64,000 nt of DNA, from positions 1 through 64,000 of the forward strand of contig CAMYIE010000012.1 in NCBI GenBank assembly GCA_947258405.1. Direction: 5' to 3'. Positions within the stretch are counted from its first letter, which is position 1, and every line of letters starts with the position of its first letter. The position numbers and the translations under genes were made by a program. The stretch is from an uncultured Eudoraea sp. Lineage in GTDB: Bacteria > Bacteroidota > Bacteroidia > Flavobacteriales > Flavobacteriaceae. Below the pieces are notes generated by a model. It was given only the letters and a program-made list of their open reading frames with translations, was not told where the DNA came from and searched no databases. This document shows, piece by piece, positions 5,821 to 10,901 of this stretch.

Positions 5821-6783
5821 TCACTCATACTTAAAGTAATATCTGGAATCAGAAGGCCTGGCGTCTACAACCGAATACGTTTTAAATTTCCACCTTGTTC
5901 TGCTCCCTATCGTATGATTGCCGTTTACTTCTATCTTAACCAAATTCCAGCCGGGTTTCAAATCCATATCTACAATTGTATATTGGTCTATAACTTTGCT
6001 AGTTTCCCCTTCATATACGGTTCTGTTTGTATCTTTCTTTTCAAATGTAGCGTGACATGAATCAGCAGAATATGCCCAATAGAGCAGGTATCCTTCATCA
6101 CCATATTTCATAGCTGATGGCGAAGCTAGATTATGGGTCGCTCGTTCTGAATTCCCTACATATATATGGCCCAAAACTTCCTCCCCGCGAATAACCTTAA
6201 ACCTGTAGCCCGACCATAAAAATGATACATCTGGGTTTGAGAATTGAACCTCGTTATTTAAGATCTCGTGCATTTGGGGAAATAATCCAGTTTTTATGAC
6301 CCTGTTGGTCTTCACTTGAGAAGGCAAATTCATCTGCACTGTCCCGGACTCTGTAACCTTTCCGACAATTACATATTCTTCGTATGGAACTCGGCCTGGG
6401 TTATAACCGCCTTCTCCATCCCAATAGGCGATTTCTGCAGTACCCCATTGCCAGTTTTCGAACACTCCCTGTCTATTGCTAGCCACCTTATTTCTCCAAT
6501 AGAAATCCTTAAGATGATCTTTAGCTGCGTCCTTTTGCTTTTTTTCCGCTTCAACTTGCCCGCGCATTTCCTCTTGTTTATATTCTTCTTCAGCGCCTTC
6601 CATCATTTTCATCGCCTCTTGAAATTGCGGATTATTTTCCATCATTTCCATTGCCTTTTTTTGGGCTTCTTCCGCATCTCTTTGCATTTCTTCCATTTTC
6701 TTTTGCTGGTCAGGAGTTTGTGATATTCCCTGAAGCACAAAAGTGAACGTAATAATCGTTACCAGAAATTTTAGAGTTCCCAT
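5821..6783 (-). CDS. Unrecognised exported protein with Met/Glu/Gln-rich helical N-terminus
   Basis: The 320-residue product has a signal peptide (hydrophobic residues about 4-20, cleavage near GISQ). Residues about 22-90 are strongly charged and helical, rich in Met, Glu, Gln and Lys (MEEMQRDAEEAQKKAMEMME). The rest is a beta-rich globular part with many Trp and Tyr residues (FENWQWGTAEIAYWDGEGGY), consistent with a jelly-roll or beta-sandwich. I do not recognise a family. The transcript probably ends at the inverted repeat 5655-5725. Export to the periplasm is the only reasonably firm inference. Confidence 0.75.
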   Translation of the reverse strand: MGTLKFLVTIITFTFVLQGISQTPDQQKKMEEMQRDAEEAQKKAMEMMENNPQFQEAMKMMEGAEEEYKQEEMRGQVEAEKKQKDAAKDHLKDFYWRNKVASNRQGVFENWQWGTAEIAYWDGEGGYNPGRVPYEEYVIVGKVTESGTVQMNLPSQVKTNRVIKTGLFPQMHEILNNEVQFSNPDVSFLWSGYRFKVIRGEEVLGHIYVGNSERATHNLASPSAMKYGDEGYLLYWAYSADSCHATFEKKDTNRTVYEGETSKVIDQYTIVDMDLKPGWNLVKIEVNGNHTIGSRTRWKFKTYSVVDARPSDSRYYFKYE

Positions 6784-7089
6784 TTAATGAAGAGTTTATG
6801 AATTATATCTTTGATTTGCAATGAATTAATAAATCAGAATTAAAGTATAATCAAACCTGGCGATCCCTCGATGAAACCAATCAAGTATAACTTGTTTTGG
6901 TACCGCTGCACCAGGTAGTTCCCCCGAAACCCGGAATTAGCAGTAACCAAACCCATTAATTTGGATTGGTTATCCAGTTCTTGATTCCATCTTCAGAACC
7001 GATTTATAGAACACTTTCGTGTTTAAAACCACGTTCCTTATAGGATCGCTATACTGGTTTGACAAAACAGTTTATGCATCATACAGGAA
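6784..7089. other. Intergenic region with one imperfect dyad
   Basis: These 306 bp lie between two minus-strand genes. The only structure seen is an imperfect dyad, TAACCAAACC (6944-6953) with GGATTGGTTA (6963-6972), one mismatch over 10 bp, with no adjoining T-run. It could be an operator for the gene at 5821-6783 or a chance dyad. No coding frame with support is visible. Confidence 0.4.
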
Positions 7090-7641
7090 TTACGGCTCCT
7101 GATATGTCACAAAGTTGCCTTCTATTTCAATGACTTCTCCAAGCGTATTGCCCAGTTCCATCTCCAGACTACCTAAAAGCAGTTGGTTATTCGCTTCCAC
7201 TAAACTTATTTTTCCCTGCCTGGAAAAGAAAGGAATCTCGCCGAACTGGTCGAGGTCTGCAAATCCAAACACCCCGTCGAAGTCCCTGAAAAGCCCTCTG
7301 ACATTCTCGGTTACGGTATAGGTGCCTCCCCTAAGCGGATAAGATAAATCGGGTGTAGCCAAAAAGACGTCGATAAAATTATTGTGTGTTGTTCCATCCC
7401 CTTTTAAGCGCAACCTGATTTCAGGATAACTTTTACCCTTGTCATTTACCCGACGTGTGGTGTCGAGCAATACACTACCAGTCAGATAGAGTTCATTTGT
7501 TCCGGATATTACCATTTCAAAATGGCCGGGCTCCGGATCAAATGTTAAAGGATAAGATTTCGAAGGGATATAAGAAATACACCAGAAGGTAATCGCAGTA
7601 AGCAATACAATGCCAAGAGGTAAAGCGTAATTTTTTCTCAT
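7090..7641 (-). CDS. Unrecognised membrane-anchored or exported protein
   Basis: The 183-residue product starts MRKNYALPLGIVLLTAITFWC, an uncleaved anchor or signal peptide. It is followed by about 160 mostly beta-type residues with motifs such as GTNELYLTGSVLLDTT, YPLRGGTYTV and ETEL-free strand-turn patterns, resembling small immunoglobulin-like or lipocalin-like exported domains. No family was recognised. It lies 45 bp downstream of the 50-residue secreted peptide gene on the same strand, so the two are probably one transcript, close to the divergent LytTR two-component pair. Confidence 0.75.
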   Translation of the reverse strand: MRKNYALPLGIVLLTAITFWCISYIPSKSYPLTFDPEPGHFEMVISGTNELYLTGSVLLDTTRRVNDKGKSYPEIRLRLKGDGTTHNNFIDVFLATPDLSYPLRGGTYTVTENVRGLFRDFDGVFGFADLDQFGEIPFFSRQGKISLVEANNQLLLGSLEMELGNTLGEVIEIEGNFVTYQEP

Positions 7642-7686
7642 GTGTCCTTTATTGAAGGACTTCCCCGAATAACAAGCGCCTGCCTG

Positions 7687-7839
7687 CTATCCACCACCGT
7701 GAGCCACAAGAATAACCTTTTCCGATTCGCCTTGAGAGACATCCTCGATCAGGTCAACCTGTTGTTCATCAGTACCGATTATTGCCGCTGCCATAACCGC
7801 CAGAACAAATAGTGCGAAGAATAATACGCATCTTTTCAC
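7687..7839 (-). CDS. Putative 50-residue secreted peptide, GTG start
   Basis: A 51-codon frame on the minus strand starts with GTG (plus 7837-7839) and ends with TAG (7687-7689). An in-frame TAA two codons upstream of the GTG excludes a longer form. Residues 1-21 are a basic start and a hydrophobic core (KRCVLFFALFVLAVM then AAAIIG), a good signal peptide or membrane anchor. The remaining 28 or so residues are acidic (DEQQVDLIEDV) and end in VILVAHGGG. It lies 45 bp ahead of the 183-residue membrane protein gene and is divergent from the LytTR/kinase genes. The family is not recognised; a signalling or stress peptide is speculation. An internal ATG at codon 16 would remove most of the leader, so GTG is preferred. 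Confidence 0.5.
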   Translation of the reverse strand: MKRCVLFFALFVLAVMAAAIIGTDEQQVDLIEDVSQGESEKVILVAHGGG

Positions 7840-8213
7840 GACTTAAATTTTTAGTTCTTATAAATCAGATCATGGTTCCCGGGGGAAATCAACAGGGCCA
7901 AATTAAGTGCTCAAGTCTTAGCTACCTCAACGATTTGTGTAGATGACATCAAATCGTGTATAAATGGTATAAAGTAAATCAACTCAAGCTAACTATGTTA
8001 CTCCTTGATTTTGAAACCATTATAAATTTGCTCATAAATAATAACAAATCGAAAGAATGACTATGATCGACCAAAAAAACCCTATAAAATGCCATTAACC
8101 AGTGATTTTGAACCGCTTATACGCATATCTGTTCTAACCATACATAATTTTCGAACCGCCGCTGAATATCCTGCTAATTTTGTTTAACTTTCACTTAATT
8201 ATATGGTTGATTT
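7840..8213. promoter_or_regulatory. Divergent control region with repeated CAAATCG motif
   Basis: This 374-bp region lies between the secreted peptide gene (minus) and the LytTR gene (plus). It contains ACGATTTG (7930-7937) facing CAAATCGT (7950-7957), perfect 8-bp arms with a 12-nt spacer. A third CAAATCG lies at 8045-8051. GAACCGC occurs twice, at 8110-8116 and 8153-8159, 43 bp apart and close to the promoter of the regulator gene. Such repeats suggest binding sites, perhaps for the LytTR regulator itself, but this is inference. Confidence 0.4.
8175..8182 (+). promoter_or_regulatory. Bacteroidota -7 element for the LytTR/kinase operon
   Basis: TAATTTTG matches the TAnnTTTG consensus and lies 31 bp before the ATG at 8214, giving a leader of roughly 25 nt. 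The -33 element is poor (TTTTCG at about 8147-8152, spacing slightly long). Confidence 0.45.
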
Positions 8214-8957
8214 ATGCAAACGAAGCTAGAAGCAGTATTGGTTGATGATGAAGATAAGGCGTTGCAGAGTCTTTCATGGGAATTAACCAACTTCAGTGAC
8301 GAAATAGATGTTGTAGCCTCTTTTACAGATCCTTTTAAAGCACTGACATACCTGGAGACTCACACCCCCGACTGTCTATTTCTCGATATTGAAATGCCAA
8401 CGATGGATGGCTTCCAGTTCATTCAGAAATTAAACAACAAAGATTTTCCGGTGGTGATCACCACTGCCTACAACCAGTATGCCATCAAAGCACTTAAAAA
8501 TGAGGCCATAGATTACCTTTTAAAACCTATCGATTCAGATGATCTGAAAGACACCATTGTTAAGATAAAGAAATTCAATTCCAAGATATATACAGCTGAA
8601 AAACTAGAAAAACTCCTGCTGAATTTCAATTCTAATTCCATCAATAAAAAGGTTACTTTCAGTACGGACGGCAAACTTGTATTCCTCGACAGTGAGGATA
8701 TCCTGTATGCGGAATCGGATGGTAATTATAGCACCATTTACCTGTCGGATGGTCAAAAGATTGTGCTGACCAAAAAACTAAAAGAAGTGAACGAACTCCT
8801 GCCCAGTGATACGTTTTTCAGAATACACAATTCCTATATCATCAACCTCTCAAAAATCAAGGAATTCCTAAAAACCGATGGTTACGTAATACTTAAATCT
8901 AATCATAAAATACCGGTTTCCCGTCAAAAGAAATCGGACTTCCTGGACCTCATTTAA
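8214..8957 (+). CDS. LytTR-type DNA-binding response regulator
   Basis: The 247-residue regulator has an N-terminal receiver domain (about 1-120) with acidic pocket DDED at 11-14, phospho-acceptor D58 (CLFLDIEMP) and conserved K104 (YLLKPID). The C-terminal half (about 150-247) is a LytTR domain, recognisable from DILYAESDGNYSTIYLSDG, the KLKEVNELLP segment and FRIHNSYIINLSKI, which binds DNA through beta-strands. It is 9 bp from a LytS-type kinase gene, so the two form a two-component system. The divergent secreted peptide gene is a plausible target or signal source, though nothing in the sequence proves it. Confidence 0.96.
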   Translation: MQTKLEAVLVDDEDKALQSLSWELTNFSDEIDVVASFTDPFKALTYLETHTPDCLFLDIEMPTMDGFQFIQKLNNKDFPVVITTAYNQYAIKALKNEAIDYLLKPIDSDDLKDTIVKIKKFNSKIYTAEKLEKLLLNFNSNSINKKVTFSTDGKLVFLDSEDILYAESDGNYSTIYLSDGQKIVLTKKLKEVNELLPSDTFFRIHNSYIINLSKIKEFLKTDGYVILKSNHKIPVSRQKKSDFLDLI

Positions 8958-8966
8958 AAATAGCCT

Positions 8967-10901
8967 ATGGTATTTACCAAGGTAAAATCTCCCCTACTTC
9001 TTTCAGCGCTGTTTATTTTTCAAGCCATTATCGGTCAGATTACTGATCCCGGTTTTGAAGCAGTGACCAAGGAGCTTATTGAAAATACATCGCAGTCGTA
9101 CAGCGAAATCGACCAGGCGATGAGGAAAAACAGATCTGATACGCTTCAGATGAAGTATTTCCTCGAACAATCTGCAAAAGAGAATTATTGGGACGGCACT
9201 TCATACGCCTATAATCAATTGGGAGTCTATTACAGGGATGTTTCAGACTTTTCAAATGCTGTAAAATTCCATGAAGCCGCATTGCAGGCAGCTGATCAGG
9301 CTAATAATATTGAACTACGGATCATGAGCCTTAATATGCTCGGTGCTGTATATCGTAAAAAAGATGGTATAAAAGCGGCGCTGGATTATTATCAGGAGGC
9401 GTTAAAACTGGCAGAGTCTATCGAGGAACCCAATGATTATATACAAAGCAGTATCAATAATGCGACCAACGGCATAGGAAATGTTTACAAATCATTAGGA
9501 CAATACGACCTTGCGATCAACTACTTTAGAAATTCCCTTGACTATGAATCCGATCTGGGCAATACCAGGGGGCTGGCTATAAATTATCAAAACATCGCTG
9601 AATGCAAGGAAGCCCAGGGACAATTGAAAGCGGCACTGGAGAACTATGAAGCTTCCTTGCGATTTAACGAAAAAGTGGGGTCTGAACGAATACGGGTGGT
9701 TAATAACTACGGTATAGCGCATGTTTATGTACACCTGGATATGATGGAAGAAGCCCTTGAAAAGCTTGAATCCATTCTCCCCGCGGCAGAGAAACTAGGG
9801 GACCCTGAAATCTTGTCTTCGGTATATATTCATATGGGGTGGACCCTCACCCGCCTTAAACAGTTAGATAAAGCAAAAGGCTATTTAGACAAGGGATTGG
9901 ACATTTCCAGGCAATATCAGTTGCTGGCCAACCTCGAACAGGTAAATTCCTTTCTTCACGACTTATGGCTGGAGCAAGGAGATTATGAAAAAGCCCTGAA
10001 CTACTATAAGGCTTCCAAATCAGCAGAGAGAGAAATTTCGAACGACCGCGACCGCCGTTATGTCTATGATGTTATCTCACGTTCGGAGGTAGAAAAACGC
10101 AGCAACCAGATCGAAATGCTCGCAAAAGAGAACGAGATCGTAAAACTCCGTCTTCGCCGGAATAAAAATACGCTATTGGTAAGTGCCCTTTTGCTCGCGT
10201 TATTTACCATCATCCTCTACATTCTATACCGGCAGTATCAGCTAAAAAGCGATAAAAAGTTGCTTACCCTGGAACAGAGCATGCTGAGAAGCCAGATGAA
10301 CCCTCATTTTTTGTTCAATTCGCTCAATTCAATCAAGCTGTACATTATTAATAACGAGACCAAAAACGCGGTCCATTACCTCAATAAATTCTCCAAATTG
10401 ATCCGTAAAATCCTGGAGGCTTCCTCACTTAAGGAAATTCCCCTGGCCGAAGAGCTGGAGACCGTGGAACTCTATATGAACATAGAGAATATTCGATTCT
10501 CCAATGAGATCGAATTTGATATCAAAGTCGATGAAGGGATCGATCCCCATATCGTTAAAATCCCATCCCTTATACTCCAGCCATTTTTGGAGAATGCCCT
10601 GTGGCACGGACTCTCATCAAAGGAAGGAGAAAAATCTGTGCTTGTACATGTTAAAAATGGAGAGAAAGGATTTATTCAGATAGCGATAACCGATAACGGC
10701 GTAGGCAGAGAAAAAGCCGCCGAACTAAAAGAGAGCAAAGTTCTTAAGAGAAAGTCGGTTGGTATCGACATTACCAAAGAGCGGCTCGATAATTTCTCCA
10801 AAGACTATCAGAATTCATTCGATGTGAAGATATTCGACCTATTTGACGATCAGGGTAAGGCATCAGGAACAAATGTCGTTTTACATATTCCGACGATCTG
10901 A
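8967..10901 (+). CDS. TPR-containing LytS/YehU-type sensor histidine kinase
   Basis: The 644-residue kinase has a signal peptide (about 1-24). A periplasmic array of tetratricopeptide repeats covers about 60-390, for example SAYAYNQLGVYYRD-like and NNATNGIGNVYKSLGQYD units. A transmembrane helix follows at about 403-423 (LLVSALLLALFTIILYILY), then a cytoplasmic His_kinase domain with the hallmark QMNPHFLFNSLNSIK near residue 445 and an ATP-binding N/G box (DNGVGREKA near 576). This layout fits the kinase partner of LytTR regulators. The TPR array probably senses a protein or peptide partner. Its last 21 bp overlap the convergent DUF3109 gene. Confidence 0.95.
   Translation: MVFTKVKSPLLLSALFIFQAIIGQITDPGFEAVTKELIENTSQSYSEIDQAMRKNRSDTLQMKYFLEQSAKENYWDGTSYAYNQLGVYYRDVSDFSNAVKFHEAALQAADQANNIELRIMSLNMLGAVYRKKDGIKAALDYYQEALKLAESIEEPNDYIQSSINNATNGIGNVYKSLGQYDLAINYFRNSLDYESDLGNTRGLAINYQNIAECKEAQGQLKAALENYEASLRFNEKVGSERIRVVNNYGIAHVYVHLDMMEEALEKLESILPAAEKLGDPEILSSVYIHMGWTLTRLKQLDKAKGYLDKGLDISRQYQLLANLEQVNSFLHDLWLEQGDYEKALNYYKASKSAEREISNDRDRRYVYDVISRSEVEKRSNQIEMLAKENEIVKLRLRRNKNTLLVSALLLALFTIILYILYRQYQLKSDKKLLTLEQSMLRSQMNPHFLFNSLNSIKLYIINNETKNAVHYLNKFSKLIRKILEASSLKEIPLAEELETVELYMNIENIRFSNEIEFDIKVDEGIDPHIVKIPSLILQPFLENALWHGLSSKEGEKSVLVHVKNGEKGFIQIAITDNGVGREKAAELKESKVLKRKSVGIDITKERLDNFSKDYQNSFDVKIFDLFDDQGKASGTNVVLHIPTI

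Follow-up and report, generated by a model that had tools for sequence, protein, structure and literature searches.

A conserved one-helix small protein beside a LytTR/TPR-kinase pair in Flavobacteriaceae and a tandem promoter repeat that follows the presence of the pair

The window, that is, the whole stretch of 64,000 nucleotides of Eudoraea DNA analyzed here, holds on its minus strand, from position 7839 down to 7687, a frame of 50 codons with a GTG start at 7839 and a stop codon ending at 7687. It encodes the peptide MKRCVLFFALFVLAVMAAAIIGTDEQQVDLIEDVSQGESEKVILVAHGGG, and stops interrupt plus-strand frame 1 across the same interval (7687–7839). As originally predicted, an in-frame TAA is found two codons upstream of the GTG, and the start of the frame is fixed because of it. 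Family comparison defines the product as a small protein of 50 residues with an M[KR][KR]C start, one hydrophobic helix, and a variable acidic tail. The gene ends 45 bp ahead of a second minus-strand ORF (7090–7641), coding for a protein of 183 residues without a Pfam family, with which it is probably co-transcribed. On the other side, it is divergent from two plus-strand genes whose products were confirmed with Pfam: a LytTR response regulator (8214–8957), with Response_reg and LytTR domains, and a histidine kinase (8967–10901) with a signal-peptide-like start, a TPR array, and a His_kinase domain. One later membrane helix was read by eye in the kinase, and its TPR sensor should face the periplasm. 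Both neighborhoods are as the original prediction had described them, and the frame, its GTG start, and the gene order are all kept in the sister genome (G001). Together with the low pN/pS of the helix codons described below, this confirms that the 50-codon frame is a real gene.

The structure model of the 183-residue protein combines an N-terminal helix with beta strands (mean pLDDT 82.8). A fold search with this model returned no match among solved structures at E ≤ 0.001, and no Pfam match was obtained in 23 members of its family. These members derive from a search in which 31 of 249 genomes were matched at E ≤ 0.01, the best 23 of the 31 matches (down to E 2.5e-5) being taken as real. At all 23 loci, that of the window included, one small frame of the peptide kind lies upstream of the gene. 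Starting from the peptide, the 183-residue protein is encoded directly 3' at only 51 of 83 loci and is absent at the remaining 32. A secreted-looking protein of 320 residues, whose N-terminal part is charged and for which Pfam gave nothing above the cut-off, is encoded at 5821–6783 on the minus strand; it is present at the sister locus (76% identity) and was found at none of the other 21 loci compared.

Used alone as a query in 60 relatives, the 50-residue peptide gave one clear match, in the sister genome, plus several weak ones, among which those in G012, G033, and G019 were recognized as true members by a later profile and the others were rejected by the positions of the profile hits. This profile, named A2 and built from the small frames at the 23 loci of the 183-residue protein, detects the peptide in 65 of 397 Flavobacteriaceae genomes at E ≤ 2.4e-5, with at most one strong match per genome; in one of the 65 (G356), a stop lies inside the matched stretch as scored. 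Matches of around E 3e-5 and weaker were discarded as noise, being mostly long frames away from the locus in the 18–20 loci inspected. The carriers include Robiginitalea, Eudoraea, Muriicola, Maribacter, Saonia, Poritiphilus, Pseudozobellia, and Euzebyella. No NCBIfam match was found for 23 peptide members at E 0.01, and Pfam gave a single weak match among them (DUF6724, E 0.0016) and none above the curated cut-off.

Close orthologues of the LytTR regulator (at least 73% identity, with six candidates scored per genome) are present in 63 of the same 397 genomes, and in 59 of these 63 the peptide is divergent from the orthologue, so that both homologues and kept synteny were found where the original prediction had proposed to look for them. 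The spacing between the two matches is 226–473 bp in 57 genomes, and 671 and 1624 bp in the other two. The peptide is located elsewhere, away from the LytTR orthologue, in G104 and G312, and neither a peptide match nor the tandem site described below was found in G199 and G293, which hold the regulator. Four further genomes from two genera (G149, G338, G205, and G377) keep the peptide and give no regulator match at E ≤ 1e-60.

The coding constraint on the peptide is concentrated in its N-terminal part. Over 15 chosen pairs of related peptides, pN and pS were 0.09 and 0.45 for codons 1–22, and 0.24 and 0.57 for the tail. The substitution pattern by codon position that a real gene had been expected to exhibit is thus visible in helix and tail over these pairs, but not in the tail of the window/sister pair, where a pS of 0.16 and a pN of 0.18 indicate no constraint; the helix of the same pair holds four synonymous changes and one nonsynonymous change. 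A start of the type M[KRQN][KR][CS] is present in 82 of the 83 distinct peptides, which were collected from genomes and named loci together. Among residues 4–22, the lowest entropies correspond to F8, C4, L15, A18, and L11, and the entropy is periodic along the sequence, with a maximum at 100 degrees per residue (p 0.0009 by permutation over residues 4–22 and 0.0033 over residues 5–21). As read from the aligned sequences, conservation is on one face of the predicted N-terminal hydrophobic helix, comprising C4, F8, L11, L15, and A18. Position 22 is acidic (E or D) in 62 of the 83 peptides. When the first 22 codons of the peptide were compared with those of the kinase in 12 pairs, the peptide exhibited a pN of 0.08 and a pS of 0.41, versus 0.21 and 0.39 for the kinase, whose starts lack an ATG and are approximate at L069, L133, and L137; the peptide helix had changed more than the kinase start in only two of these pairs.

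The tail follows a different pattern from the helix, as it varies in sequence. It is net negative in 72 of 82 peptides, and the GG ending is restricted to the window and the sister among these 82, with VAQFGG in the sister where the window has VAHGGG. A secreted mature peptide as the conserved portion is not supported: the conserved portion is the helix. For a signal-peptidase site after residue 18, 67 of 82 peptides agree with a loose rule and 23 of 82 with a strict one, so that cleavage may still occur. A retained one-helix membrane protein is more likely than a secreted peptide.

Upstream of the peptide gene, word counts in 75 distinct intergenic regions pointed to ACCATTTATACA. The window holds on the minus strand a first copy of this direct repeat at 7957–7968, ACCATTTATACA, agreeing with the consensus at 12 of 12 positions, and a weak second copy at 7936–7947, GTCATCTACACA (8 of 12), 21 bp from the first. 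A -7-like element, TAATTTGG, is located at 7898–7905 on the same strand, with its TTTG at an offset of 66 nt, counted from where the first repeat begins. At the same place, the sister genome has repeat copies scored as 11 and 9-like. Two copies with a period of 21 bp score at least 18 of 24 in 70 of the 75 intergenic regions, compared with only 2 to 13 of the 75 for the other periods between 13 and 33, and 0 of 375 base shuffles. In addition, TTWG, with which the Bacteroidota -7 box ends, has an offset of 66 or 67 nt, counted in the same way, in 49 of 74 sites; none of the remaining offsets between 40 and 99 occurs in more than 6.

In the window's own genome, the peptide promoter is the only site with 0 mismatches to the relaxed pattern, and six further sites have 2 mismatches, versus 3 for the reversed control. 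The 2-mismatch sites L161–L165 were set aside for lacking a -7 box, and L222 and L223 look like chance. In 31 chosen genomes, 15 exact matches were obtained, 12 of them at peptide promoters, and the controls gave 0; the exact pattern matched 13 of the 31 genomes, as many peptide promoters do not fit it. The four system-less genomes have no exact match. A second tandem site, common to two genera, was observed at L207 (G250:C1:1010088) and L217 (G259:C1:877585), upstream of a hairpin-rich stretch and with its -7 box off the usual offset.

The presence of the site follows that of the two-component system. When the 250 bp upstream of the 83 distinct peptides were scored alike with the threshold of 18 of 24, 75 of the 78 system-bearing loci reached the threshold, and none of the four where the peptide is kept without the system did; shuffles reach it in 2 of 332. 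The three system-bearing loci below threshold are L109 (17), L128 (17), and L123 (11), the last having its best site, with a score of 22, 1464 bp upstream of the peptide; the four system-less loci score 17 (L061), 16, 14, and 13. L080 (score 15) stands outside these presence counts, as its short contig hides whether the system is present. In G104 and G312, the site is found at the moved peptide (23 and 19) and not upstream of the LytTR gene (15 and 15). These counts do not represent independent events because the loci are related, and the losses are few, covering two genera for the peptide.

The original prediction had considered the peptide as either a signal or a target of the pair. The second part is supported at the transcriptional level, as the promoter repeats go with the system across the compared genomes. 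The first part, a signal for the kinase, is unlikely as the only role of the peptide: the gene does not depend on the kinase, given that four genomes keep it without a regulator match. In the absence of the system, the peptide is still under purifying selection (helix pN/pS of 0.06/0.59 and 0.08/0.44), and for this reason it is regarded as an output that has its own role.

The same site is also associated with structured RNAs. A second clade of the regulator comprises 62 loci with identities of 43–71%, in which the site precedes the LytTR gene in the same orientation, scoring at least 18 at 13 of 16 loci; among 12 further loci that the RNA model does not match, 9 also reach this score. In this clade, the peptide is replaced by a three-hairpin RNA with a terminator, located between the LytTR gene and nrdB (L170–L180 and L193), in which 8 of 22 pairs have a change on both sides. 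The model of this RNA matches 32 genomes at E ≤ 1e-6, none of which, by eye, is among the 65 peptide genomes, although four peptide genomes gave weak matches (E 3e-4 to 8e-3). At 32 of the 62 loci, RNA and regulator point away from each other, 128–269 bp apart. The tandem score reaches 18 at 12 of 12 loci with the system, a set that is biased because this RNA was discovered through its position next to the site, and at none of the five loci without it, which come from the model search; shuffles reach it in 1 of 340. At L187–L191, the RNA is kept, with system and site both absent. A conserved TTAGTTAGTTTAGTTAATTATTGGG stretch with a terminator hairpin was also observed downstream of this RNA at 10 loci (L170–L177, L179, and L185).

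A second RNA was reached via the 2-mismatch site L160 in the window's own genome. It is found there at G000:C5:58121-58222 (L160, L242) as well as at L243–L270, away from the regulator gene, and holds a hairpin with a CUCCCG loop and changes on both sides in 6 of 15 pairs. Its model, which excludes the repeats, matches 75 of 319 genomes at E ≤ 0.001. Thirty loci were fetched, 29 of them scorable (L271 lacks an anchor). The site scores at least 18 at 22 of 26 loci with the system, eight of the 26 being seeds of the model, and the other four score 17, 16, 14, and 14; none of the three loci without the system reaches 18 (12, 13, and 14), and with 200 single shuffles each, the maximum score is 15 to 18. 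Rfam gave nothing at the gathering score in the 12 + 6 loci tried, and one match in window positions 7000–8300, below the cut-off, was dismissed as chance. A similar TTAGTTTAGTT stretch followed by a terminator occurs after the second RNA in the window's genus (L160/L221).

The product of the gene is, fairly probably, a small bitopic protein of the inner membrane, with its N-terminus inside and its acidic tail outside; it would be a direct transcriptional output of the LytTR/TPR-kinase pair and would act through one helix face on a membrane partner. This proposal builds on what the sequences show of the gene and how it is conserved, of the conserved helix face, of the geometry of the promoter, and of the co-occurrence of site and system, and it further presumes binding by this particular regulator, activation rather than repression, the topology, and the function of the protein. 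The kinase would sense the envelope via its presumably periplasmic TPR domain; once active, it would lead the regulator to bind the direct repeat with a 21-bp period and turn the promoter on, as the geometry suggests. The face formed by C4, F8, L11, L15, and A18, followed by the acid at position 22, may then contact the partner, and the small protein would be the effector of an envelope adjustment, perhaps also exerting feedback on the kinase.

Such feedback as the main role, with the microprotein acting on its own kinase through the tail at the periplasmic TPR sensor or from helix to helix, is rather unlikely, and it may coexist with the effector role. MgrB, which reportedly damps or boosts PhoQ by contact, provides a model for it, and both the site at the peptide promoter and the divergent linkage in 59 of 63 genomes agree with it, as does the membrane side that the tail and the TPR domain should share. 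Purifying selection on the peptide in the four genomes without a regulator match, however, speaks against feedback as the only role, and in the sister clade this promoter is held by an RNA. Considerably less probable is a secreted autoinducing signal, in which a signal peptide would be cleaved and the variable tail would be the pheromone read by the TPR sensor. Some pheromone precursors have a conserved start and a variable tail, as this family does; the loose cleavage motif after residue 18 and the autoinduction-like position of the site point in the same direction. Yet the helix is under stronger constraint than the neighboring signal-peptide region and is conserved on one face, the peptide is kept without the pair, and no exporter or processing gene was recognized among the neighbors when the window genes were used as queries.

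The two other explanations have very little probability. Type I toxins are small and have a single helix, and in size and helix the peptide is comparable; a membrane-acting toxin of this kind nevertheless fits poorly with at most one strong match per genome, a fixed place, and strong constraint, which makes it very improbable. Even slightly less credible is a leader frame that merely tunes the translation of the 183-residue protein: the gap of 45 bp and the pairing at 51 of 83 loci would suit it, but the downstream gene is missing at the other 32, and the constraint acts at the amino-acid level on one helix face.

Several known systems resemble parts of this arrangement. LytTR-type regulators such as AgrA, ComE, AlgR, and YpdB have sites made of two direct repeats, spaced by about two turns of the helix and placed upstream of a promoter. 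The site described here is alike in this arrangement, and differs in that the repeat is ACCATTTATACA and precedes a Bacteroidota -7 box, and in that either a one-helix protein or an RNA serves as output. MgrB and SafA are small membrane proteins of about 40–70 residues with a single helix, controlled by two-component systems; the peptide shares with them the single helix, the size range, and the (here predicted) control, although there is no common sequence family and, in some genomes, the peptide persists where its system is gone. AgrD and ComC, precursors of quorum-sensing signals of LytTR systems, are also encoded by short genes beside a regulator and a kinase. The likeness extends to a variable C-terminal part and to a (here putative) regulator site at the promoter, whereas in the present family the constraint lies on the helix, the gene is kept without the kinase, and the sensor is a TPR array.

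A literature search of limited depth returned no description of this peptide, site, or regulon, nor of any target of a LytTR/TPR-kinase pair of this kind in Bacteroidota. The Rfp1-89 small RNAs of Flavobacterium psychrophilum are structured and conserved in the family, Rfp18 having at least three stem-loops (PMC9723704). The two RNAs described here are alike as structured, family-conserved RNAs, and may be among those of F. psychrophilum. As for a possible phenotype, Table 2 of PMC10197871 covers five F. johnsoniae lines that evolved together with a rival producing an antibiotic: each is mutated in FJOH_RS09515 or FJOH_RS09520, and none of the monoculture lines is. These adjacent genes code for a LytTR regulator and a histidine kinase, respectively, and constitute a phenotype lead as a candidate counterpart of the window's pair.

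What has been gained is a defined site, a small target protein carried by 65 of 397 genomes, and natural losses by which site and system are linked. In a broader and more tentative reading, the pair could be a family-wide regulator of the envelope state in Flavobacteriaceae in which the output at the fixed place is exchanged between the one-helix protein of the window's clade and the three-hairpin RNA of the sister clade, the second RNA stays under the same site in both clades, and both kinds of output outlive the system in some lineages. Protein and RNA would then solve one regulatory task in two ways, and if such an exchange of protein for RNA at one promoter is true, whether a microprotein and a small RNA do the same job becomes testable.
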